A stretch of 41,039 nt of DNA from Pseudomonadota bacterium (GTDB lineage Bacteria; Pseudomonadota; Gammaproteobacteria; Burkholderiales; Burkholderiaceae_C). The notes under the pieces are model-generated. The model did no database searches, had not been told where the DNA came from, and saw nothing but the letters and a program-made list of their open reading frames with translations. This document shows, one piece after another, positions 65 through 23,692 of the stretch. Position numbers and translations under genes: made by a program. Position 1 is the first letter of the stretch, and every line of letters begins with the position of its first letter. The DNA lies in assembly GCA_030538605.1 (NCBI GenBank), contig JAUNTQ010000014.1:1-41039 (forward strand). The letters are read 5' to 3'.

Positions 65-1312
65 ATGAATAATGGGCGCGCCGCCATGAAAAAGACTGTT
101 TTGCCCCCCCCTTGCATGCCGCCCATGGCGGAGCTGGCGCTGCGCGCGTTTGACGATGCGCTGGCGGTGCTGGCGCCGGGCGAGCCGGGGGCCAAGGTGC
201 GCTGGTGCAGCGAGTCGTTTGCGCAGCTGTTGCAGGGCACGCCCGCGGATTGGCAAGGGCAGCCGCTGGCGGTGCTGATGGCGCGCCTGCCGGGCCTGGA
301 CGAAGGGCTGGATGCGCTGGCTGATGCAGCGCCGGCATGGAGCGGCCCGGTGAACCTGCACGGTGCCGATGCCAAGCCGCGCTGGGCGCTGGCCAGCCTG
401 CGCGCCACGGCGGGGGCCGATGGCCAGGGCGGCGCGGGCGAGCCTGCATGGGCGCTGCGCCTGCAGGCCGAGGCCGAGCAGGAGCGCGCCACGCGCCGCC
501 ACCTGGAAGACCGCGAGCGCCTGCTGTTCACCTCGCGCAGCGTGGCCGTGGGCGAGATGGCGACCACGCTGGCGCATGAGCTGAACCAGCCGCTGGGCGC
601 GGTGACCAACGTGCTGCGCGGGCTGAAGACGCGGCTGGCCGGCGCCGTGGCCAACCCCAGCCCGAGCGCGCTGCAGGCGCTGGAGCAGGGCGTGCAGCTG
701 GCGCTGGACCAGGTGCAATACGCCTCGCGCATCATCGGACGCATGCGCGACTACACCCAGTCGCGCCAGCCCCGGCGCGAGCGGGTTGACCTGCATGCGC
801 TGCTGCACAACAGCCTGACCCTGCTCGACTGGGACCTGCGCCGCCACGGCGTGCAGCTCAACCTGGGCGAGAGCCTGCGCGCGCTGCCCGCGCCAGCGGG
901 CCAGCGGGCCACGCACGTGGTGGGCGACGGCGTGATGCTGCAACAGGTGCTGGTCAACCTGCTGCGCAACGCCATCGACGCCATGGCCGGCACGCCCGCG
1001 GGCCAGCGCGTGCTGGACATCGGCGCGCGCACCGACGAAGGCGGGCAGATCGAAATCGCCATCGCCGACACCGGCAGTGGCATCGGCCAGGACGCGGCGC
1101 AGCAGCTCTTCACCCCCTTCTTCTCCACCAAGCCCACCGGCATGGGCATTGGCCTGAACATCTGCCGCAGCCTGATCGAGCTGCACCAGGGGCGCCTGTG
1201 GTTCAGCCCCAACCCCGAGCGCGGCTGCACCTTCTATCTCGCCCTGCCGCTGGCAGACGCGCAGGCCGACGGCCTGCCGCGCTTTCTCGTCAGCGAGGAA
1301 ACCCCCGCATGA
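65..1312 (+). CDS. Soluble PAS-like sensor histidine kinase
   Basis: Cytoplasmic two-component kinase that should autophosphorylate on histidine and pass the phosphate to the regulator encoded next. The N-terminal ~140 residues look like a degenerate PAS sensor. A linker leads to an H-box of the GEMATTLAHELNQPLGAV type (phospho-His near residue 171). The ATPase domain has an N-box (NLLRNAIDAM, Asn near 302), G1 (DTGSGIG) and G2 (GMGIGLN). No membrane segment is visible, so the signal is probably intracellular. The H-box resembles FixL/TtrS/DctS-type kinases. Start is uncertain: ATG at 44 lies in a dispersed repeat, and 65 and 86 are alternatives, none with a strong ribosome site. Its stop overlaps the next start (ATGA at 1309-1312), which implies translational coupling. 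The signal sensed is unknown. Confidence 0.85.
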   Translation: MNNGRAAMKKTVLPPPCMPPMAELALRAFDDALAVLAPGEPGAKVRWCSESFAQLLQGTPADWQGQPLAVLMARLPGLDEGLDALADAAPAWSGPVNLHGADAKPRWALASLRATAGADGQGGAGEPAWALRLQAEAEQERATRRHLEDRERLLFTSRSVAVGEMATTLAHELNQPLGAVTNVLRGLKTRLAGAVANPSPSALQALEQGVQLALDQVQYASRIIGRMRDYTQSRQPRRERVDLHALLHNSLTLLDWDLRRHGVQLNLGESLRALPAPAGQRATHVVGDGVMLQQVLVNLLRNAIDAMAGTPAGQRVLDIGARTDEGGQIEIAIADTGSGIGQDAAQQLFTPFFSTKPTGMGIGLNICRSLIELHQGRLWFSPNPERGCTFYLALPLADAQADGLPRFLVSEETPA

Positions 1313-1998
1313 ACACCCCCGCCCCGCCCGCCGCCGTGCGCACCCTCTACCTGCTGGACGACAACGACGACTTCCGCGCCACCGCCAAATGGTGGCTGAG
1401 CGGCGCGGGCTATGAGGTCATCGACTTCGGCGACCCGGGCGCCGCCATCGACGTGCTCATCGGCCTGGACGCCAGCACCATCACCCGCGCCTGCCTGCTG
1501 CTGGACGTGCGCATGCCCGGCATGACCGGCCTGCAAGTGCACGACACCCTCATCGCCCACGGCATCACCGGCGCCACCGCGCGCCCGGCGCTGCCCATCG
1601 TCTACATGACCGGCCACGGCGACGTGCCCCTGGCCGTGCAGGCCATGGAAAAAGGCGCCATCACCTTCCTCGAAAAGCCGTTCGAGGAAAGCGCGCTCGA
1701 ATCCGCGCTCGAGCGCGCCTTCCAGCCCCGCGCCGGCCTGCCCGAAGAGCCGCCCGACCTCGACGCCGACGCCCCCCCCCTGTGCCCCGAATACGCCAAG
1801 CGCCTGGCCACCCTCAGCCCGCGCGAGGCGCAGGTCATGCAAGGCGTGGTGCAAGGCAAGATCAGCAAAGTCATCGCCCGCGAACTCGACGTCAGCACCA
1901 AGACCATCGAGCTGCACCGCAGCCGCGTGATGCTGAAAATGCAGGCCGACTCCGTCGTCCACCTCACCCGCATGGCCCTGGCGCGGCGAGCGCTGTAA
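1309..1998 (+). CDS. FixJ/NarL-type response regulator
   Basis: DNA-binding partner of the kinase just upstream. The receiver domain has an acidic pocket (LLDDNDD, about residues 13-19), the phospho-acceptor Asp in LLLDVRMPGM (about D66), the switch Thr in YMTGHGD and the conserved Lys in FLEKPF (about K123). An acidic/proline linker leads to a LuxR-type helix-turn-helix (about 169-225; LSPREAQVMQG and KTIELHRSRVMLKM). At 229 residues the length is normal for FixJ/TtrR regulators. The start at 1309 is chosen over the upstream in-frame ATG at 1198 because it gives the classical ATGA overlap and a receiver domain of normal length. Targets are not evident; a long palindromic repeat follows the stop and probably terminates the operon. 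Confidence 0.9.
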   Translation: MNTPAPPAAVRTLYLLDDNDDFRATAKWWLSGAGYEVIDFGDPGAAIDVLIGLDASTITRACLLLDVRMPGMTGLQVHDTLIAHGITGATARPALPIVYMTGHGDVPLAVQAMEKGAITFLEKPFEESALESALERAFQPRAGLPEEPPDLDADAPPLCPEYAKRLATLSPREAQVMQGVVQGKISKVIARELDVSTKTIELHRSRVMLKMQADSVVHLTRMALARRAL

Positions 1999-2008
1999 GA
2001 ACAAAAAG

Positions 2009-2100
2009 ATAGCTGCTTGCGTATGGTTTAAAACGTTTTCAGTATTGTTTTATGATGAAAACGTTTTAAACTGTACGCAAACAGCTATTATTTTTTTTGT
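2009..2100. repeat. Long palindromic repeat, copy R1 (terminator-like)
   Basis: Arms 2011-2041 and 2056-2086 are complementary over ~31 bp with three mismatches, and enclose a 14-nt AT-rich loop. The outer arms carry the family signature AGCTGCTTGCGTA. The palindrome is preceded by an A-run and followed by eight or more Ts (2091-2098), so on the plus strand it should act as a strong intrinsic terminator for the two-component operon. Related copies lie near 13051, 14505, 23601 and 34166. Confidence 0.85.
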
Positions 2101-2373: not shown

Positions 2374-3219
2374 ATGGGTGCAGCAGTAGGTGTAGTGGCC
2401 AGCGCAGTGCTGGGTGGTGGCGGTGGCGGTCTGCTGGGCGGCATGCTCGGCGGCGGCGGTCTGCTGGGTGGCATTGGTCAGCTGGTGAGCGGCTTTCTGG
2501 GTGGTGCCGGCGGCGCTGGCGGTATCGGCCAAGTGTTGCAGGGCTTTTCCCCCGCCAACATCATCAACGCCACGGCCAACCTGTTCAACTCGGTGAATGG
2601 CAACAGCGTGAAAGACGCCGCTTGCACACTGCACAAAGAGCACGGCATGCCCAAGTTTGTGCAGGACATCGTCAACCAGGCCGTTGACAAGATCCTGAAG
2701 CAGAACCACAAGGAAACCGATCCTGCTGCTCAGAAGGCGCTTGACGACGCGACCAAGGGCGATGCCGACAAGACCATTCAGGAAATGGCCCAGAAGATCG
2801 TCGACATCGTGACCAAGCGCCTGAACGAAGGCGTGAAGGGCGCTGGCGGCGAAGGTGGCGAAGGCGAAGCTGCTGCTGGCAGCGGCCGCAAGAAAACAGC
2901 GGGCAGCTGGCTGATGTTGATTGCCCAGGCCATGGGTGAGGTGTTGGGCGAAAAGGCCGCCAAGATGGTTGAGCTGTCGCAGGAAGTCAGTGCGGCGGCC
3001 AAGGAGCAGAAGGCGGCCGCCCAGGAAATGAAGGACGCCAAGACGGAAGATCAGAAGAAGGACGCCGGAGCTTCTGACAAGAAAGCCGCAGCCCGCATGA
3101 CCGAAGCCCAAACCGAGCTGCAAGGTGTGAGCCAGGAATACAAGCTGCTGACCGAGACCATCTCCACGGTGATCAAGGGCATTGGCGAATCCCTGTCGAC
3201 CATGGGTCGCAAGCAATAA
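2374..3219 (+). CDS. Glycine-rich, coiled-coil protein of unknown function
   Basis: I do not recognise this 281-residue protein. Residues 1-55 are almost wholly Gly, Leu, Ala and Val (blocks of four or five glycines between LLGG repeats). There is no classical positively charged signal peptide, so it is either membrane-inserting or exported by a route other than Sec. A central helical part follows, with one Cys near residue 88. A Gly/Glu-rich linker (about 150-168) precedes a hydrophobic helix (SWLMLIAQAMGEVLG). A long Lys/Ala/Glu-rich coiled coil (about 195-280) ends in an amphipathic TETISTVIKGIGESLSTM. The layout (glycine-rich hydrophobic head, amphipathic coiled-coil tail) loosely recalls harpins and secretion-apparatus or pore proteins, but that is analogy only. 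It has a good Shine-Dalgarno and its own terminator, so it is a separate transcription unit just upstream of six exported paralogs. Confidence 0.75.
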   Translation: MGAAVGVVASAVLGGGGGGLLGGMLGGGGLLGGIGQLVSGFLGGAGGAGGIGQVLQGFSPANIINATANLFNSVNGNSVKDAACTLHKEHGMPKFVQDIVNQAVDKILKQNHKETDPAAQKALDDATKGDADKTIQEMAQKIVDIVTKRLNEGVKGAGGEGGEGEAAAGSGRKKTAGSWLMLIAQAMGEVLGEKAAKMVELSQEVSAAAKEQKAAAQEMKDAKTEDQKKDAGASDKKAAARMTEAQTELQGVSQEYKLLTETISTVIKGIGESLSTMGRKQ

Positions 3220-3330: not shown

Positions 3331-4062
3331 ATGCCCCGATCTTTCGCACACCGAGCCTGTTGCGCCCTGGCGGTGCTCGCACTGAGCCCCCTGTCTGCTG
3401 GCCCTGCGTTGGCTTACGGGATAAGCAGTGACGCGGGCATGAGCTTGTCGATAGGCGCAGGCAACTATCTGCTTGGTCAGCAAACGCTGAAAAGCGCCAC
3501 GCGCAGTGCGGCGCAAGCCACGTCAGCCAAGCGCGCCGCGCCAGCGCGGGTCGCAACGAATGCCAATACCCGGTTCGCTCCATCGGGCAGCAGCGCAGGA
3601 CTGAATACGCTGGTGGCGGTGTACCCGGGCGCCGAACGCGGGCAGGCGCGGCAGGGTTACGGGCAATTGCGCGACGCGTATCCGCAAGTGGCCCGGCAAC
3701 TGGGTCTGCCGCTGAACGACGTGGCCAGCGCGCTGGCGTCGTTTCTGGTGGGCAGCTACATGGCCTACCACAACACCCCATTTGCCGATGCGCATGTCAA
3801 GCCGCTGGCCGATCAGATGCGCGGCGCGCTGGCCAGCGAGGGGGGCTGTGGCCGCATGAGCGATGCCGAGAAGGAGTCCATCTACGACCAGATGGTGATG
3901 CTGGGCATGATGATGGCAACCACGCAAGTGCAGTTGCAGCAGCAGCCCGATGCGCGCGTCGAGGCGCAGTTGCGCGAGGTGGGGCGGCAGTTTCTGGAAG
4001 GCATGTTGCAAGTCAAGGCCGATCGTGTGCGCCTGACGGCTGCAGGCTTGCGCATCGAGTAG
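3331..4062 (+). CDS. Exported array paralog 1 (unknown function, DUF6683-like)
   Basis: First of six tandem paralogs. It has a Sec signal peptide (Arg/His-containing start, hydrophobic core, cleavage near ALA-YGISS). A low-complexity Ala/Ser/Arg linker leads to a helical domain from about residue 88. The shared family core is G-L-x-x-L-V..YP, then LG-P-x-x-D-V-A, then Y-x-AYHN-x-P near residue 143 followed by DA..KPL..Q, then R-M-S-x-A-E-K and a C-terminal V-R-L..A-G-L-R. From memory this resembles proteins annotated DUF6683; I cannot confirm that here. Within the array it groups with paralogs 5 and 6 (RMSxAEK motif). Predicted to be periplasmic or secreted. The ribosome site is weak. No catalytic residues are recognisable. 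Confidence 0.8.
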   Translation: MPRSFAHRACCALAVLALSPLSAGPALAYGISSDAGMSLSIGAGNYLLGQQTLKSATRSAAQATSAKRAAPARVATNANTRFAPSGSSAGLNTLVAVYPGAERGQARQGYGQLRDAYPQVARQLGLPLNDVASALASFLVGSYMAYHNTPFADAHVKPLADQMRGALASEGGCGRMSDAEKESIYDQMVMLGMMMATTQVQLQQQPDARVEAQLREVGRQFLEGMLQVKADRVRLTAAGLRIE

Positions 4063-4131
4063 GGCGGTGGCGATGTGCGCTTGTCGGTCTATGCCGGGTA
4101 AACGAAGCACTGCCGTGTCTGCGCGTTTACC

Positions 4132-4887
4132 GTGAGCAGAAGAGACACACCCGCCGTGCAAGGTTGGCCTTTCCTGGCCGCGTGCTGTTTCGCCCTGATC
4201 CCGACGGGCGTCGGCGCCTGGGGCATCAGTGAGCCCACGCTGTACGACCTGGGGCAGCTGCAGATGACGCATCGCAGCCTGAGCCGTTTGAATGAATCGG
4301 TGTTTGGCGACGCGGCGGCTACGCCCGCAGGCGGCACGCGGGTGGCTCGCTCGCCGCTCGATCTGGGCCAGGCAGGGCTGTCGGTGGCGGGCAATGGCAC
4401 CTTGTCCAGCAACAAGGGAATTGAAAAGATCGTGGCAAGGCTGTTTCCTCGCGAGGAGTTTGTGCCCAGGCGCATTGCCTTGCAGCAGTTGGTGGAGGCG
4501 TTTCAGCGCAATGCACAACAGGTGTATGGCGTGCCGCCCAATCATCTGGCCACGGCGATGGCCGTGGCTGTGGCCGGCGGCTGGTCGGCCTGGCACGGCG
4601 AGCCGTTTCGGGACGAATGGGTCAAGCCGCTGGTGGCGCAGTTCGATGCGGCGCTGCGCGACGACCCGGCGATTGCCGCGATGTCGATCGGCAGCAAGGT
4701 GTACACGCACCAGTTGCTTGTCGGCATGGGGCTGCTGCTGCTGGCGGAACAGGCGGCGCAGGGGGCGCAGTACGACGCCGGGCGCAGGTCGCGATTGCGC
4801 AAGCTTGGTGGCGACTACTTTCAGTCGCTTTTGCAGGTGTCGCCGCAGCAAGTGCAGCTGTCGGCGCAGGGGCTGCGCATGCCATGA
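4132..4887 (+). CDS. Exported array paralog 2 (unknown function)
   Basis: Second paralog, 251 residues from a GTG start. The N-terminus has basic residues and then a hydrophobic stretch (GWPFLAACCFALIPTG) with predicted cleavage near GVGA-WGIS. The conserved core is present: G-I-E-K-I-V, then YGVPPNHLATAMA, then W-S-A-W-H-G-E-P-F followed by D-E-W-V-K-P-L, ending V-Q-L-S-A-Q-G-L-R-M-P. It is closest to paralogs 3 and 4 (x-x-YGVP-x-N-x-LATA pattern), consistent with local tandem duplication. It lies 69 bp after paralog 1, and its stop overlaps an ATG at 4884 (ATGA), so paralog 3 is probably translationally coupled. Function unknown. Confidence 0.75.
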   Translation: MSRRDTPAVQGWPFLAACCFALIPTGVGAWGISEPTLYDLGQLQMTHRSLSRLNESVFGDAAATPAGGTRVARSPLDLGQAGLSVAGNGTLSSNKGIEKIVARLFPREEFVPRRIALQQLVEAFQRNAQQVYGVPPNHLATAMAVAVAGGWSAWHGEPFRDEWVKPLVAQFDAALRDDPAIAAMSIGSKVYTHQLLVGMGLLLLAEQAAQGAQYDAGRRSRLRKLGGDYFQSLLQVSPQQVQLSAQGLRMP

Positions 4888-4898
4888 AAGAAGGGGTG

Positions 4899-5651
4899 AT
4901 GAAGATGCGTAGATGGTCGGGAACGTGGCTGCTGCTGCTGGCGTGCGTGCTGTTGCCGCTGCCGGCGCGGGCCTTGGGCCCCGATGCGGTGAACACGGGC
5001 TTCATCATTGACTTCAATGAACAGTGGCTGCGCGAGGATGCGGTCAACCGGACGCTCAGCCAGGCGCGCAAGGACATGCAGCCGCGCGAGCGGCATCAGG
5101 CGGGCGGTGGCAGCGATGTCAAGACCGACATTCTGTGGACCGGCTCGCTCAGGCTGCACGAGGGCAGGCTTTTCTTGAACGATGAGGGTGTTCACAAGCT
5201 GGCGAACATGTTTCCGTCGCAGCAGTACGTGCAAGCCTACGACGCATTCACGCAAATCATTGCGTCGTTCAACGAGAACGTGGAGCGGCTGTACAAGGTG
5301 CCGCCGGAGAACGTGGCCACGGGCGTGGCCGCGTTGCTGGCGGGGGGCTACGCGGCTTATCACAACAAGCCATTTCCCGATGCCTGGGTACGCCCCGTGG
5401 TGCGGCAGGTGGATGCGCTGTTGCGCCAGAAGCCGGAGCTGTTCGAAGGCAAGACTGTTTACAAACGCGAGTCCTATCAGGTGTCGGTAGGCATTGGCAT
5501 GCTGCTGCTCATGACGCAGACCGAACTGGCCAAGCAAAAGGGTGCGGATGCAAGCGCATTGAAGGCGGCGGGCGCGCAGGTGCTGGCGTCCACACTGGGC
5601 GCGCCGCCTGAGCGCATCGTGTTTTCGGCGTCCGGGTTTCGGGTGCGTTGA
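4899..5651 (+). CDS. Exported array paralog 3 (unknown function)
   Basis: Third paralog, 250 residues from the ATG at 4899; ATGs at 4884 and 4905 are alternatives. The signal peptide (MKMRRWSGTW, then an LLLLACVLLPLP core, ARA cleavage) is almost identical, in DNA as well as protein, to that of paralog 4, although the mature proteins differ widely. The mature domain keeps G-V-H-K-L-A, then YKVPPENVATGVAALLAGG, then Y-A-A-Y-H-N-K-P-F followed by D-A-W-V-R-P-V, and the C-terminal S-A-S-G-F-R-V-R. The start at 4899 is favoured because the same GTGATGAAGATGCG context precedes paralog 4. Likely periplasmic or secreted and cotranscribed with its neighbours. No enzyme motif is seen. Confidence 0.75.
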   Translation: MKMRRWSGTWLLLLACVLLPLPARALGPDAVNTGFIIDFNEQWLREDAVNRTLSQARKDMQPRERHQAGGGSDVKTDILWTGSLRLHEGRLFLNDEGVHKLANMFPSQQYVQAYDAFTQIIASFNENVERLYKVPPENVATGVAALLAGGYAAYHNKPFPDAWVRPVVRQVDALLRQKPELFEGKTVYKRESYQVSVGIGMLLLMTQTELAKQKGADASALKAAGAQVLASTLGAPPERIVFSASGFRVR

Positions 5652-5685
5652 AGGCGCTGGACGTTGGTGGTGACATCAAGGAGTG

Positions 5686-6456
5686 ATGAAGATGCGTAGA
5701 TGGTTGGGAACATGGCTGCTGATGGCGTGCGTGCTGCTGCCGCTGCCTGCACGGGCGCTGGGCGATGCGGCCTGGGGCTACAGCTACGACTTCACGAACA
5801 CCTCGATTCAGAGCGATCTGGTGTGGCGTGCCACGCGGCAGGCGACGGCGTACGACCCTTATGCGACGGGAAAGTCCGGCGGGGGCAAGCGCCAGGCCGA
5901 GGAGAGCAAGCGCTCGGTGCTGGACTTGGGCACGTACCCCGAGCGCGAGAACGTCACGGGCCACCGCCGCCTGTGGGAACCGGAGCCACTGGAGCGACTG
6001 GCGCGCCAGCTGTATCCGCAAGCGCAGTACGCAGCGCGGCGCGGCATGTTCATTGACCTGGTGCTGGCGTTCAACGACAACGTGCAGCAGAAGTACGGCG
6101 TGCCCAAGAACAACCTGGCCACGGCCACCGCGTTGGCGCTGGTGAGTTCTCACGCGGTGTATTCAGGCAAGCCGGTGCCGGATGCCTTCATCAAGCCGTT
6201 GGTCGAGCAGCTGCAGCGCACCATGGAGGGTGATCCAAAGCTCAAGGACATGAAGATCGGGGAGAAGAACGACGTGTATCTGTCACTGGTGGGCGTGGGC
6301 ATGTGGTTTTACGGCATGCAGGCCGATGTGCAGCAGAACCCCGACGCCGCGCGCGAGGCGCGGCTGCGCGAGACGGCGGGCAGTTACTTTCAGCGCCTGG
6401 CGGGCGCGGCACCCGAGCGGGTGTCGTTTGGCCGCAAGGGGTTGGTGGTGCGGTAG
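5686..6456 (+). CDS. Exported array paralog 4 (unknown function)
   Basis: Fourth paralog, 256 residues. It follows paralog 3 by 34 bp, with a clear AAGGAG ribosome site. The signal peptide is nearly the same as that of paralog 3 (one Leu-rich codon shorter). The mature part is the most divergent of its subgroup at the Y-x-AYHN position, which reads H-A-V-Y-S-G-K-P-V, but it retains L-E-R-L-A-R-Q-L-Y-P, YGVPKNNLATATALAL, the P-D-A-F-I-K-P-L segment and the hydrophobic V-G-V-G-M-W-F helix. It ends F-G-R-K-G-L-V-V-R. Loss of the aromatic-His pair suggests relaxed constraint or a changed role. Otherwise unrecognised. Confidence 0.75.
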   Translation: MKMRRWLGTWLLMACVLLPLPARALGDAAWGYSYDFTNTSIQSDLVWRATRQATAYDPYATGKSGGGKRQAEESKRSVLDLGTYPERENVTGHRRLWEPEPLERLARQLYPQAQYAARRGMFIDLVLAFNDNVQQKYGVPKNNLATATALALVSSHAVYSGKPVPDAFIKPLVEQLQRTMEGDPKLKDMKIGEKNDVYLSLVGVGMWFYGMQADVQQNPDAAREARLRETAGSYFQRLAGAAPERVSFGRKGLVVR

Positions 6457-6496
6457 ATCAGCGCTTGTTTAACGTGGTGCCTGAAAGGAGTTTTCG

Positions 6497-7258
6497 ATGA
6501 GGCAATGGACATGGGCGCGCTGCGCCGCCGTGCTGTGGGTGGGCGCTGGCGGAATGGCTGCCGTGCAGGCGCAAACGTTTCCGATGTACAGCTCGGTGGC
6601 CTGGAGCATGAGCAACTCGGCGGGCAACGCCATCTTGAGCCAGAACACCTTGCGCGAGGCGGCCAAGGCCGAGGGGCGGCCGATGGCAGAGGGCGCGCCG
6701 CTGTTTGACCGATCGCGCGGTGCGGGCAAGGCGCCTGCGGGGCGCGCACCGCGCGCGGTTTCCACCGCCATTGCCAAACCGGGGGGCACGCGCGGCATCG
6801 AATCGCTGGTGGCGGGTTACCCCGCTGCGCAGAAGGCCGAGATGCGCAAGGTGTTCACGCAGTTGATTGCGGCTTTCGAGCCGGTGGCGGGCCAGCTGGG
6901 CGCGCCCGCTTATGACATGGGCAGCGCGGCAGCAGCGCTGATTTCAGGCAGCTATGCCGCGTACCACAACCAGACTTTGTCGGAGGCGCACTTCCGGCCG
7001 CTGGCGCGGCAGATGCAAAGAGCGTTTGAAAGCGATGCGGGTTTCAGCCGCATGTCGACGGCGGAAAAGCAGAACCTGTACCAGATCATGGTGGGCGCGG
7101 GCATGCTGTTCACGGTGGTGCAGCTGGAAAACGCCAAGCAGCCCAACCCGGAGGTGACGGCCCAGCTGAGGGCGGCGGGGGGCGATTTTCTCGGGCAGTT
7201 CACGCACTCCAACCCGGCGCTGGTGCGGCTGGGAGACGACGGCTTGCGCATGCCTTGA
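6497..7258 (+). CDS. Exported array paralog 5 (unknown function)
   Basis: Fifth paralog, 253 residues, 40 bp after paralog 4. A strong ribosome site (AAAGGAG) sits in a leader nearly copied in front of paralog 6. The Sec signal ends near AVQA-QTFPM. The mature protein has a 60-residue Ala/Arg-rich linker, then the core: G-I-E-S-L-V-A-G-Y-P, then Q-L-G-A-P-A-Y-D-M, then S-Y-A-A-Y-H-N-Q-T followed by A-H-F-R-P-L, then R-M-S-T-A-E-K, then V-R-L-G-D-D-G-L-R-M-P. It is most like paralog 1 (about the same length, same RMSxAEK motif), although three genes of the other subgroup lie between them. Function unknown; predicted soluble and exported. Confidence 0.78.
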   Translation: MRQWTWARCAAVLWVGAGGMAAVQAQTFPMYSSVAWSMSNSAGNAILSQNTLREAAKAEGRPMAEGAPLFDRSRGAGKAPAGRAPRAVSTAIAKPGGTRGIESLVAGYPAAQKAEMRKVFTQLIAAFEPVAGQLGAPAYDMGSAAAALISGSYAAYHNQTLSEAHFRPLARQMQRAFESDAGFSRMSTAEKQNLYQIMVGAGMLFTVVQLENAKQPNPEVTAQLRAAGGDFLGQFTHSNPALVRLGDDGLRMP

Positions 7259-7325
7259 CCACAGGAGGGATGGTGATGCGATAGGTCAATGGTTTTGAGA
7301 ATCCATGCTTGAAAGGAGTTTTTCG

Positions 7326-8183
7326 ATGACAGGAAATCAGACAAGGCCGCTGCGCGCACGCGCCGGCTGGCAGGGGTGGCGCCACATGGTGGCGGCTGCC
7401 GTGGCGGGCGCGGGGCTGCTGGCGTGGCCCGCGCTGTCGTGGGGGTTTGCGGGCATTTTTGATGCGAGCACGCAGAAGGCGCTGCAAGGCATCGGCGGCT
7501 CGCTGATGGACGCCAAGCCTCCTGCGCCGGCGCTGCCGAGTGTGAGTGGCATGGCTCCGCGCGGGCGCGGCGGTGAGGCAGCGGGTGAGAAGCCCGTGGC
7601 CAAGGCCGATGCGGGCGCGGGCGCGCGGGGGGATGCGCAGGCGGACGCGGGCGCTTTCAAGTATTCGCAGCGGGTGAGCGCGCAGGTGCGCGACGATGTC
7701 ATTCAGGAGCTGGTGAATCTGGGCAAGCGCAATGGCGGCCTGGACGCGGCCGGTGAAAAGCAGCTGCGCGAGGCGCTGGGCAAGGTGGACATTGCCAAGA
7801 GCATCGGGGGTGCCTTGCAGGCCAAGGGCTACCCGCAGCACAGCCTGGCCACGGCCACGGCGTTCTGGCTGGTGGTGAACTACGAGATCGTGCACGGCGT
7901 GCAGGCCACCGACACGCAGAACGCCGCCGTGCTGCGCCAGATGCAGCAGCGCATGGCCGCCACGAGCGATGTGGCGCGCATGAGCGATGCGCAAAAGCAG
8001 CGCGCGGCCGAGGGCATGATGTGGTTCGCCACCTTGCAGCATCAGCACAATGAGCAGGCGCGCCAGGGTGCGCCGGGCTATGCGCTTCAGACCGTGCAGG
8101 CCGATGCGCGCGAGGCGCTCAAGACCTTCGGCATCGACGCCGATCAGCTGAAGCTGACCGACCAGGGCCTGGTGCCGCGCTGA
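7326..8183 (+). CDS. Exported array paralog 6, divergent (unknown function)
   Basis: Last and longest paralog (285 residues). The start at 7326 is chosen because the AAAGGAG site lies 9-15 bp upstream, in the same leader as paralog 5; the in-frame ATG at 7305 has none. The N-terminal export signal is longer and Arg-rich (hydrophobic segment from about residue 22, cleavage near SWG-FAG). The Y-AYHN motif is replaced by N-Y-E-I-V-H-G-V, but HSLATATAFWLV, A-R-M-S-D-A-Q-K and the terminal K-L-T-D-Q-G-L-V-P-R keep it in the family. A Gly/Ala/Asp-rich linker spans about residues 60-120. It ends 39 bp before the stop of a convergent gene, with no obvious terminator. Confidence 0.72.
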   Translation: MTGNQTRPLRARAGWQGWRHMVAAAVAGAGLLAWPALSWGFAGIFDASTQKALQGIGGSLMDAKPPAPALPSVSGMAPRGRGGEAAGEKPVAKADAGAGARGDAQADAGAFKYSQRVSAQVRDDVIQELVNLGKRNGGLDAAGEKQLREALGKVDIAKSIGGALQAKGYPQHSLATATAFWLVVNYEIVHGVQATDTQNAAVLRQMQQRMAATSDVARMSDAQKQRAAEGMMWFATLQHQHNEQARQGAPGYALQTVQADAREALKTFGIDADQLKLTDQGLVPR

Positions 8184-8222: not shown

Positions 8223-8924
8223 TCAGGGTGCGTCATCAGCCGCTGTCAGCACCTGCCGCTGGCGCACACGCCGGGGCAGCGTGTGCCACTCGGCCCAGTG
8301 GCTGCGGGTGAGCGAAAAGCGCGCGGCCTGCTGGCCGTTGTAGGGCCCCAGGCCCATGGGGCGAAAGCCCAGCACGCGCAGGCAGTGTGCGGCCGAGCGG
8401 TTTTCCGGCGCGCAGTAACCCCGCACTTCGCCGTGCCCCAGCGTGGCGAAGGCGCGCGTCAGCAGCCATTCGCCCCCGTCCAGCGCCAGTGCGCCGCCCC
8501 AGGCATCGGGCGTGAGGCGCGCGCCGATTTCCAGCGTGTCGGGCGCATCGGCCAGGTGCACCAGGCTGAACCAGCCGCAAAAACGCCAGTCGGGCGCGCG
8601 CACGGCGGCCAGCAGCGCGTCGCCAATCTCGCCGGCGGCGTGTGCGGCCAGCGCCTCGGCCACGCTGTCGGCATCGGGCGGCTGGGCGCGCTCGGCGCAC
8701 CAGATGCCGGTGCCTTCGTGGCGGCGGTAGAAGGCGTGCATGCCGGCCACGAAGCGGTGTGCCGCCTCGGGCGTGTGCAGGGGGTGGTCGTCCACCAGCT
8801 GGGCGCGAATGCGCGGATCCTGGTGCATGCGGGCGATGTCGTCCACGTCATGCCAGGCCCACTCGCGCAGGCGCAGCCGGGGCCCGGCGGGCCAGGGGGG
8901 CGCAATGTCTTGGGTGTTGTTCAC
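8223..8924 (-). CDS. GNAT-family N-acetyltransferase (RimJ/RimL-like)
   Basis: Predicted acetyl-CoA-dependent N-acetyltransferase of 233 residues. The N-terminal PRLRLREWAWHDVDDIARMHQDP matches the RimJ/RimL-type opening strand-helix. The C-terminal ENRSAAHCLRVLGF is the classic N-x-x-S-x-x-x-L-x-x-x-G-F segment of that group, close to the acetyl-CoA site. The middle (LEIGARLTPDAWGGALALDGGEWLL) fits the usual I-G-x-x-L..W-G-x-G-x-A-x-E pattern, with variations in the pyrophosphate-binding loop. The substrate cannot be told. Convergent with the paralog array and divergent from the next gene. Confidence 0.8.
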   Translation of the reverse strand: MNNTQDIAPPWPAGPRLRLREWAWHDVDDIARMHQDPRIRAQLVDDHPLHTPEAAHRFVAGMHAFYRRHEGTGIWCAERAQPPDADSVAEALAAHAAGEIGDALLAAVRAPDWRFCGWFSLVHLADAPDTLEIGARLTPDAWGGALALDGGEWLLTRAFATLGHGEVRGYCAPENRSAAHCLRVLGFRPMGLGPYNGQQAARFSLTRSHWAEWHTLPRRVRQRQVLTAADDAP

Positions 8925-23525: not shown

Positions 23526-23600
23526 CTGTATCAAACAGTGACGAAGTGCCGTGCAGCTTGTGATGTATTCACCTTTTCTGGTACGCCTTGAACAAAAATA

Positions 23601-23688
23601 AAGTGAGCTGCTTGCGTATGTTTTAAAACGATTTCATATGAATTTGATATTGAAATCGTTTTAAAACATACGCAAGCAGCTTCTTTTT
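23601..23688. repeat. Long palindromic repeat, copy R4 (perfect)
   Basis: Arms 23606-23636 and 23651-23681 are complementary over all 31 bp, enclosing a 14-nt loop; a T-run follows at 23682-23689. It is the best-preserved member of the family. It lies immediately after the stop of the metallo-beta-lactamase-fold gene on the minus strand and upstream of the LuxR-family gene, with A-rich and T-rich flanks suited to termination in both directions. Confidence 0.92.
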
Positions 23689-23692
23689 TTAT

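Follow-up and report, generated by a model that had tools for sequence, protein, structure and literature searches.

Six tandem DUF6683 paralogs as a possible variable, exported accessory set of a Burkholderiales T3SS

Why a bacterium should keep six divergent paralogs of one exported protein side by side, and what these proteins might serve, is the question raised by a 41,039-nucleotide stretch of DNA from a member of the Burkholderiales (the whole stretch is called the window here). We propose, at a probability of roughly 0.55, that the array is the variable end cassette of a T3SS locus and provides that T3SS with a diversifying, Sec-exported set of accessory proteins.

The array described in an earlier note is indeed present, with all six open reading frames found as consecutive plus-strand genes at 3331-8183 (Table 1). 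The encoded proteins, P1 to P6, have 243, 251, 250, 256, 253 and 285 residues (P6 from 7326, its likely start because a ribosome-binding site is seen there in the sequence). Membership in DUF6683, which the note had suggested, was borne out, as 6/6 paralogs pass the PF20388 model at 62-145 bits against a curated Pfam cut-off of 23.6 bits. P5 covers positions 9-252 of the 253-position profile, P6 47-251 and P1 54-252; P2-P4 match it only from about position 98-119 onward. The six also behave as one family in phmmer, where P1 recovers the other five (the weakest, P6, at E 9e-6) and no further ORF of the window at E <=1. The reverse searches are weaker: P6 is not recovered by P2 or P3 at E 1, and among the paralogs P6 itself recovers only P1, P4 and P5 (P5 at E 0.09). 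Pairwise identity among the six is 24-38%. Two motifs that had been read as best kept throughout proved less general in the alignment, since AYHN occurs unchanged in P1, P3 and P5 alone (its counterpart is AWHG in P2, VYSG in P4 and IVHG in P6) and DA..KPL is missing from P6.

Table 1. Features of the array and its surroundings in the window (tree support values in brackets).
Feature	Position	Strand	Observations
Sensor histidine kinase	116..1312 (ORF 44-1312)	+	Pfam HisKA and HATPase_c; start picked by own gene caller
Two-component response regulator, LuxR-type DNA-binding domain	1309..1998	+	Pfam Response_reg and GerE
Long palindromic repeat, two 42-nt arms	2000..2097		between regulator and glycine-rich gene (repeat search)
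P0007, glycine-rich hydrophobic N-terminus	2374..3219	+	C-terminal half homologous to T3SS needle-position gene (alignment A3)
DUF6683 paralog P1	3331..4062	+	predicted export signal; PF20388 145 bits; closest relative in G141 (97/97)
DUF6683 paralog P2, GTG start	4132..4887	+	predicted export signal; PF20388 65 bits; clade with two G689 copies (100/99)
DUF6683 paralog P3	4899..5651	+	predicted export signal; PF20388 62 bits; clade with G146, G230, G686 and G694 copies (100/100)
DUF6683 paralog P4	5686..6456	+	predicted export signal; PF20388 79 bits; joined with G689 copy (100/97); leader common to P3
DUF6683 paralog P5	6497..7258	+	predicted export signal; PF20388 92 bits; clade with G700 and G686 copies (100/99)
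DUF6683 paralog P6	7326..8183 (ORF from 7305)	+	predicted export signal; PF20388 139 bits; clade with G689 and G086/G263 copies (100/99)
GNAT acetyltransferase, closes cassette	8223..8924	-	Pfam Acetyltransf_3

Export signals, also claimed before for all six proteins, are predicted by a simple hydropathy scan, which finds in each a hydrophobic segment near the N-terminus and, behind it, an A-x-A type site. These Sec-like features, present in 6/6, set the proteins apart from T3SS-injected effectors, which would be expected to have an N-terminal type III signal and no Sec signal peptide. The strict lipobox-cysteine pattern of a T3SS pilotin was matched by P2 alone, at an odd place, and a loose L-x-A-C can be seen by eye in P3 and P4. 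The leaders of P3 and P4 are nearly identical (89% over the first 28 residues, as against 33% over the last 150), suggesting recombination of export signals between copies; this common leader would be the clearest sign of recent exchange in the array. The array proteins are predicted to be mainly helical, and no catalytic motif was seen in them. Foldseek and VIA searches with the P1 model returned only weak, mixed helical matches and no known fold, and profile searches of PDB sequences reached E 0.34 (alignment A4) and 0.087 (alignment A3) at best.

Trees were calculated under LG+G4 from the C-terminal 175-185 residues (the internal G275 copy is in none of them). The nearest relatives of the six paralogs are found in other species, which bears out the proposal that the array grew by more than one duplication event and speaks against a recent expansion, a reading that was rejected. 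Judged from the tree, the paralogs are old lineages that have been kept or lost between species, and copy number at the array locus varies from 1 to 6. The two subgroups drawn by eye in the earlier note held in part: P2, P3 and P4 form one clade, but the grouping of P1, P5 and P6 is wrong because P6 sits apart in a separate, well-supported clade. P1 and P5 fall in one larger clade that also contains copies from other genera.

In gene maps of relatives, the histidine kinase gene (cluster c2) keeps its place in the gene order next to the T3SS/DUF6683 locus, and relatives of the GNAT gene (cluster c4) lie at the same locus, with genes from 9 of the 20 loci mapped. The maps come from our own gene caller, which was poor on G559, and infA, aroG, gatCAB and mre were named in them by eye. 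The palindromic repeat belongs to a dispersed family with at least 75 matches, on both strands, in the genome of the window, and the window flanks resemble ordinary chromosomal genes. P0007 has no Pfam match over cut-off, and no name for its family was found in the model libraries tried. In the linked T3SS the needle position lies between sctD and sctI, and it is the gene there that is homologous to the C-terminal half of P0007; the A3 model also matches a second short gene in this position. The weak matches of P0007 to DndD (17.8 bits), PbeC (15.5 bits) and a phage baseplate protein (13.8 bits) were read as chance coiled-coil similarity. Its predicted structure (pLDDT 60, two-row alignment) matched generic long-helix proteins, F-BAR proteins among them, and was not used.

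The distribution of DUF6683 ties it to one T3SS clade. We analysed 299 family genomes, 29 genomes of the window genus and a 398-genome phylum sample; per-genome copy numbers in these large searches are lower bounds. SctV of the linked clade (at least 992 bits; next best 599) occurs in 22/299 family genomes, and the P0007 family is present in exactly the same 22. DUF6683 was found in 36/299, comprising 22/22 genomes with the T3SS clade versus 14/277 others (Fisher p 3e-24) or, counted by genus, 12/12 with it versus 11/129 without (p 2e-11). Within the window genus, the clade (SctV at least 970 bits; next best 472) and the P0007/needle family occur in the same 10 of 29 genomes, and DUF6683 is present in 9/10 of these versus 1/19 others (p 1e-5; all such values are limited by the fact that genomes in one genus are not independent). 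The 25 genus genomes outside the family sample gave 5/6 with the T3SS versus 1/19 without. The T3SS clade was not picked blind, wide as the score gap is, because the SctV and P0007 models came from loci found through DUF6683. In the phylum sample DUF6683 occurs in 6 genomes, 5 of them over cut-off, and the P0007/needle family in 2/398, the window genome and G559; 4/6 DUF6683 genomes are without the P0007 family. The G559 matches are confined to the needle-like region; one of them has SctN- and SctU-like fragments nearby, and the DUF6683 copies of this genome lie on other contigs.

Gene position points the same way. In 16/22 T3SS genomes the exported DUF6683 form lies on the same strand 110-4118 bases (<5 kb) downstream of a P0007-like gene; DUF6683 of either form lies within 15 kb of it in 20/22 and far off in two (G133 and G139). 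The T3SS clusters of G143, G227, G273 and G275 hold the internal form only. In the window genus, 9 genomes have a long P0007-like gene, and DUF6683 is within 1.6 kb of it in 8 of them, the ninth being G691, which has the T3SS and no DUF6683 match in a genome 62% complete; in G706, the sole DUF6683 copy and the T3SS are on different contigs. The internal form of DUF6683 is a sister of the exported one, lacking the export signal, located inside the T3SS operon and forming one clade of 9 rows from 9 genomes (99/99); a tenth copy, in G275, was judged by position and similarity. Both positions, beside P0007 and inside the operon, are filled in G078, G096, G168, G183, G197 and G246. In the genome of the window the array is on contig C98, and another contig, C95, has homologs of the needle-position gene, of SLT and of SctV, C, D and U. 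Among the linked loci, L045 carries an SLT transglycosylase and genes that exceed the NCBIfam cut-offs for SctV, C, D, J and U, while its SctN and SctL matches fall short of theirs; L046 carries a FliO-like gene, and SctI- and SctK-like matches are weak. No published T3SS type was assigned because plasmid-borne SctV relatives (472 records) are all <60% identical.

Family membership, signal-like N-termini, T3SS co-occurrence, P0007 adjacency, the signal-less operon sister and the old lineages were observed, and it is from these that we infer both the service of DUF6683 to the T3SS and the location of its proteins. The six genes would encode Sec-exported, mainly helical proteins whose most probable place of action is the periplasm or the cell surface, where they would bind, as accessories, to the T3SS or to P0007, its needle-related partner, and the copies may diversify to fit different partners or surfaces. 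A bolder version, which we offer tentatively and regard as rather doubtful, makes DUF6683 a dedicated component family of a Burkholderiales T3SS in which a single fold serves on either side of the inner membrane: a cytosolic, signal-less form from the core operon, and a Sec-exported, exchangeable and species-specific repertoire that would adapt the P0007 structure or its contact surface.

Alternatively, DUF6683 proteins may be released from the cell or cover its surface and there act on a host or competitor themselves, sharing regulation with the T3SS and leaving the machine untouched. We consider this unlikely. In its favour are the export signals and the change in copy number between species (1 to 6 at the locus). 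Orthologs also outpace the apparatus in divergence, P3 being 47% identical to its G230 counterpart and SctV 85%, but P0007 is about as divergent (49%), and for the GNAT neighbour the identity is 70%. In the G078/G183 pair the exported DUF6683 has a dN/dS of 0.55, the highest of nine locus genes, and its N-terminal part (signal and linker) reaches 1.03, as outward action might predict, whereas the core stands at 0.27. In the G146/G230 pair, DUF6683 (0.18, at a high dS of 1.72) falls inside the range of four neighbours (0.15-0.24). Core values in the two pairs tested are 0.14 and 0.27, indicating purifying selection. Diversifying selection on DUF6683 is therefore not claimed, because the region split lowers the core to 0.27 and the second pair is ordinary. 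The signal-less sister inside the apparatus operon likewise stands against outward action and suggests work on the machine.

It is still less probable that DUF6683 is a general periplasmic family with no T3SS role, associated with the T3SS merely by linkage in a common genomic neighbourhood. The 14 T3SS-negative carriers in the family sample (one, G028, only below cut-off) speak for it. Among them, G086 and G263 have at least 6 and at least 7 dispersed copies, to which P6 is close, and the surroundings of the mapped ones (L052, L053, L080 and L081) are mixed and include no T3SS genes; G685 retains one copy at the array locus with no T3SS match. However, linkage alone sits poorly with the presence of DUF6683 in 22/22 and 9/10 T3SS genomes, with two separate positions in one T3SS locus, both filled in six genomes, and with the joint absence of DUF6683 and T3SS from 18/29 genus genomes.

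A toxin/immunity or phase-variable antigen array, to which the tandem divergent copies and the near-identical P3/P4 leader might point, is very improbable, as none of the six matched a PADLOC (defence) or PHROGs (phage) model at E 0.1, no catalytic motif was seen, the core showed no positive selection in two pairs, and no relative was found of a P1-type query in IMG/VR viral contigs or of P1 in PLSDB plasmids, which also speaks against mobile-element cargo. The earlier note offered toxin/immunity sets, antigenic or ligand diversification and multi-subunit surface structures as possibilities, none of them shown; the T3SS link is one it had not noticed.

If the exported set indeed works on the injectisome from outside, it would add an accessory layer, varying in number between sister species, to a machine thought to be well catalogued. 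DUF6683, a family without known role, gains a specific, testable partner, and since the P0007 family is likewise nameless, the locus offers two uncharacterised families for joint study. Among open-licence PubMed Central papers we found nothing in print linking DUF6683/PF20388 to a T3SS.

Known systems provide several points of comparison. FliO has been described in virulence-type T3SS, with Burkholderiales named (PMC12403147), and we see the same phenomenon here, where PF04347 (45.5 bits) adjoins sctU in L046; the relevant passages of that paper mention neither DUF6683 nor the P0007 family. DUF1521 (NopE-like) proteins are reported to be T3SS-secreted (PMC6506597), and their genes adjoin these loci (L050 by Pfam; similar cluster c16 genes in the gene maps), but DUF1521 is a separate family and the array proteins carry Sec-like signals. 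Nor are the array proteins known T3SS parts, and DUF6683 is absent from the NCBIfam and Pfam T3SS models that matched. In Pfam, PF20388, whose curated cut-off all six exceed, is a family of unknown function; here it is tied to one T3SS clade and divides into an exported form and one internal to the operon.

Six consecutive plus-strand genes (3331-8183) each encode a protein with an N-terminal hydrophobic segment and an A-x-A type site, which bears out the earlier note's description of six tandem paralogs with export signals. All six (P1-P6) exceed the Pfam cut-off for DUF6683 (PF20388), so the membership named there holds, and P1 as sole query retrieved the other five, a test that had been set beforehand. 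Pairwise identity is 24-38%, and P6 is an outlier that neither P2 nor P3 retrieved as query. With the start of P6 taken at 7326, the intergenic gaps are only 11-69 nt, so a single predicted transcript for the array is plausible; by eye, a hairpin and then a T run lie 3' of the upstream gene P0007, between it and the array. The array is thus real and DUF6683 an already known Pfam family, and it is the context that is new.

Features of the array and its surroundings in the window
Feature	Position	Placement
Histidine kinase	ends 1312	upstream of array
LuxR-type response regulator	1309-1998	upstream of array
Palindromic repeat, ~90 bases	2000-2097	upstream of array
P0007	2374-3219	upstream of array
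P1	3331-4062 (+)	array
P2	4132-4887 (+)	array
P3	4899-5651 (+)	array
P4	5686-6456 (+)	array
P5	6497-7258 (+)	array
P6	7326-8183 (+)	array
GNAT acetyltransferase	8223-8924 (-)	downstream of array

The palindromic repeat has a second copy in the window (23591-23690) and is dispersed in the genome, with at least 75 matches counted on both strands, on both of which a palindrome scores, and 40 of 365 candidates scored. Beyond the GNAT gene lie seemingly ordinary chromosomal genes, including gatCAB- and mre-like ones recognised by eye. A short seventh DUF6683 match (G000:C121:15496-15768, locus L008; 25.5 bits, open frame of 126 aa) adjoins a kinase/regulator pair and a gene that by eye resembles a DegP-type protease.

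Genes were mapped in 18 regions spanning DUF6683 hits of related genomes, and then in 20 more; six of these loci (L045-L049, L056) have SctU, a FliO-like gene, a P0007-like gene and DUF6683, in that order. In L045, SctV, C, D, J and U of a type III secretion system (T3SS) scored above the NCBIfam cut-offs and SctN and SctL below theirs; an SLT transglycosylase exceeded its Pfam cut-off. YscI- and YscK-like genes in linked loci gave weak Pfam matches. The genome of the window itself carries, on a contig of 8,396 bases (C95), homologs of SctI (partial), the needle-position gene, SctD, SctC, SctV, SLT and SctU. In two genomes of the same genus (G230, G015), the T3SS shares one chromosome with a kinase-regulator-P0007-DUF6683-GNAT block, SctV and P0007 lying 20-25 kb apart. 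The N-terminus of P0007 is hydrophobic and rich in glycine; the C-terminal half of the protein is shared, by alignment A3, with a gene of about 100 residues between sctD and sctI in related loci, the interval that is the needle position. We call this gene 'needle' because of its position and size, the one copy scanned having matched nothing in Pfam at E 0.1 or in NCBIfam at E 0.01. P0007 is a possible filament or translocator protein.

Among 299 genomes of the family, this T3SS clade was found in 22 (SctV at least 992 bits; next best 599), exactly those with the P0007 family. DUF6683 occurred in 36 genomes (35 above cut-off), namely 22/22 with the T3SS vs 14/277 without (p = 3e-24), or 12/12 genera vs 11/129 others; the clade was not picked blind, since the SctV and P0007 search alignments derive from loci found via DUF6683. 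A second test covered 29 genomes of the window's genus. Here the T3SS clade and the P0007/needle family were found in the same 10 genomes, P0007 again being restricted to this clade, and DUF6683 in 9 of these 10 and 1 of the 19 others (5/6 vs 1/19, p = 6e-4, minus four genomes already in the family sample). The exceptions are G691 (62% complete), with the T3SS and no DUF6683, and G685 (89% complete), with one DUF6683 copy and no T3SS hit. The G685 copy has the GNAT, infA-like and aroG-like genes of the window for neighbours; DUF6683 and GNAT (L143:6335-7502), retained at the corresponding chromosomal site, are perhaps a remnant after T3SS loss. Against the link, four of the six DUF6683-bearing genomes of a phylum sample lack the P0007 family, and G086 and G263, both about 3.1 Mb in size and lacking this T3SS clade, have at least six and at least seven DUF6683 matches, respectively, dispersed over several contigs.

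Position points the same way as co-occurrence. In 16 of the 22 T3SS genomes a same-strand DUF6683 gene follows the P0007-like gene by no more than 5 kb; in four (G143, G227, G273, G275) the sole form is one embedded in the T3SS operon, at most 15 kb away, and in two (G133, G139) DUF6683 lies elsewhere. Within the genus, a long P0007-like gene is present in 9 genomes, and in 8 of these DUF6683 lies at most 1.6 kb downstream of it; the ninth is G691, where the P0007 match is in two pieces in one frame. The internal form follows an SctO-like gene and one further gene, precedes gene clusters c15/c20, has no signal-like stretch and is one clade (9 rows, 99/99). The locus thus accommodates this family at two positions, with an exported form at one and a non-exported form at the other, and both are filled in G078, G096, G168, G183, G197 and G246. 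The internal form was not seen in the window's genus, where G015, G146 and G230 each gave a single DUF6683 match.

We regard this as a T3SS locus that carries an exported, uncharacterised family with a probable accessory role. The array would be a Sec-exported set of proteins that bind partners in the periplasm or on the cell surface. That it serves the machine is supported by co-occurrence, by location and by the operon-internal sister form that has no signal. We infer that its proteins may bind the apparatus or P0007, different copies fitting different partners. Of two rival readings, the main one has the proteins acting outward, under control shared with the T3SS. In the other, sustained by the presence of DUF6683 in T3SS-free genomes, the family is a general periplasmic one whose link to the T3SS is merely that of genomic neighbours.

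A model of P1 from a seven-row alignment (mean pLDDT 77; ten-residue means 82-94 from residue 81 on) has a poorly defined signal and linker, predicted helices at 89-95, 100-124, 131-147, 153-170, 178-204 and 208-226, and then a short beta hairpin. It had no convincing PDB chain match, which is no proof of a new fold.

Other members of the genus also have tandem arrays: the window and G689 carry six copies each, G686 has five and G694 two, with single copies in G015, G146, G230 and the T3SS locus of G700. The nearest relatives of the window's paralogs lie in other species (P1, G141; P2 and P4, G689; P3, G146/G230/G686/G694; P5, G700/G686; P6, G689 and G086/G263), so the paralog lineages predate the species and have been kept or lost between them. 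The ribosome-binding sites and signal peptides of P3 and P4 are nearly the same (4891-4979, 5678-5763; 86% DNA, 89% protein over 27 aligned residues), whereas identity falls to 33% over the final 150 residues; an exchange of the export signal is thus likely. Between the window's genome and G230, identity is 85% for SctV, 81% for the needle-position protein, 49% for P0007 and 47% for the P3 ortholog. Both tested pairs show purifying selection on the core.

As to known systems, DUF1521 genes beside T3SS loci (L050:1961-2803, the copy checked against Pfam, and the cluster c16 loci) are likely secreted substrates; DUF1521 proteins are reported to be relatives of T3SS-secreted NopE (PMC6506597). 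Neither DUF6683 nor PF20388 is mentioned in the open-licence literature searched. A FliO-like gene adjoining sctU of the non-flagellar T3SS (L046:3512-3832; PF04347, 45.5 bits) exceeds the Pfam cut-off, and FliO in non-flagellar T3SS of Burkholderiales has already been reported (PMC12403147).
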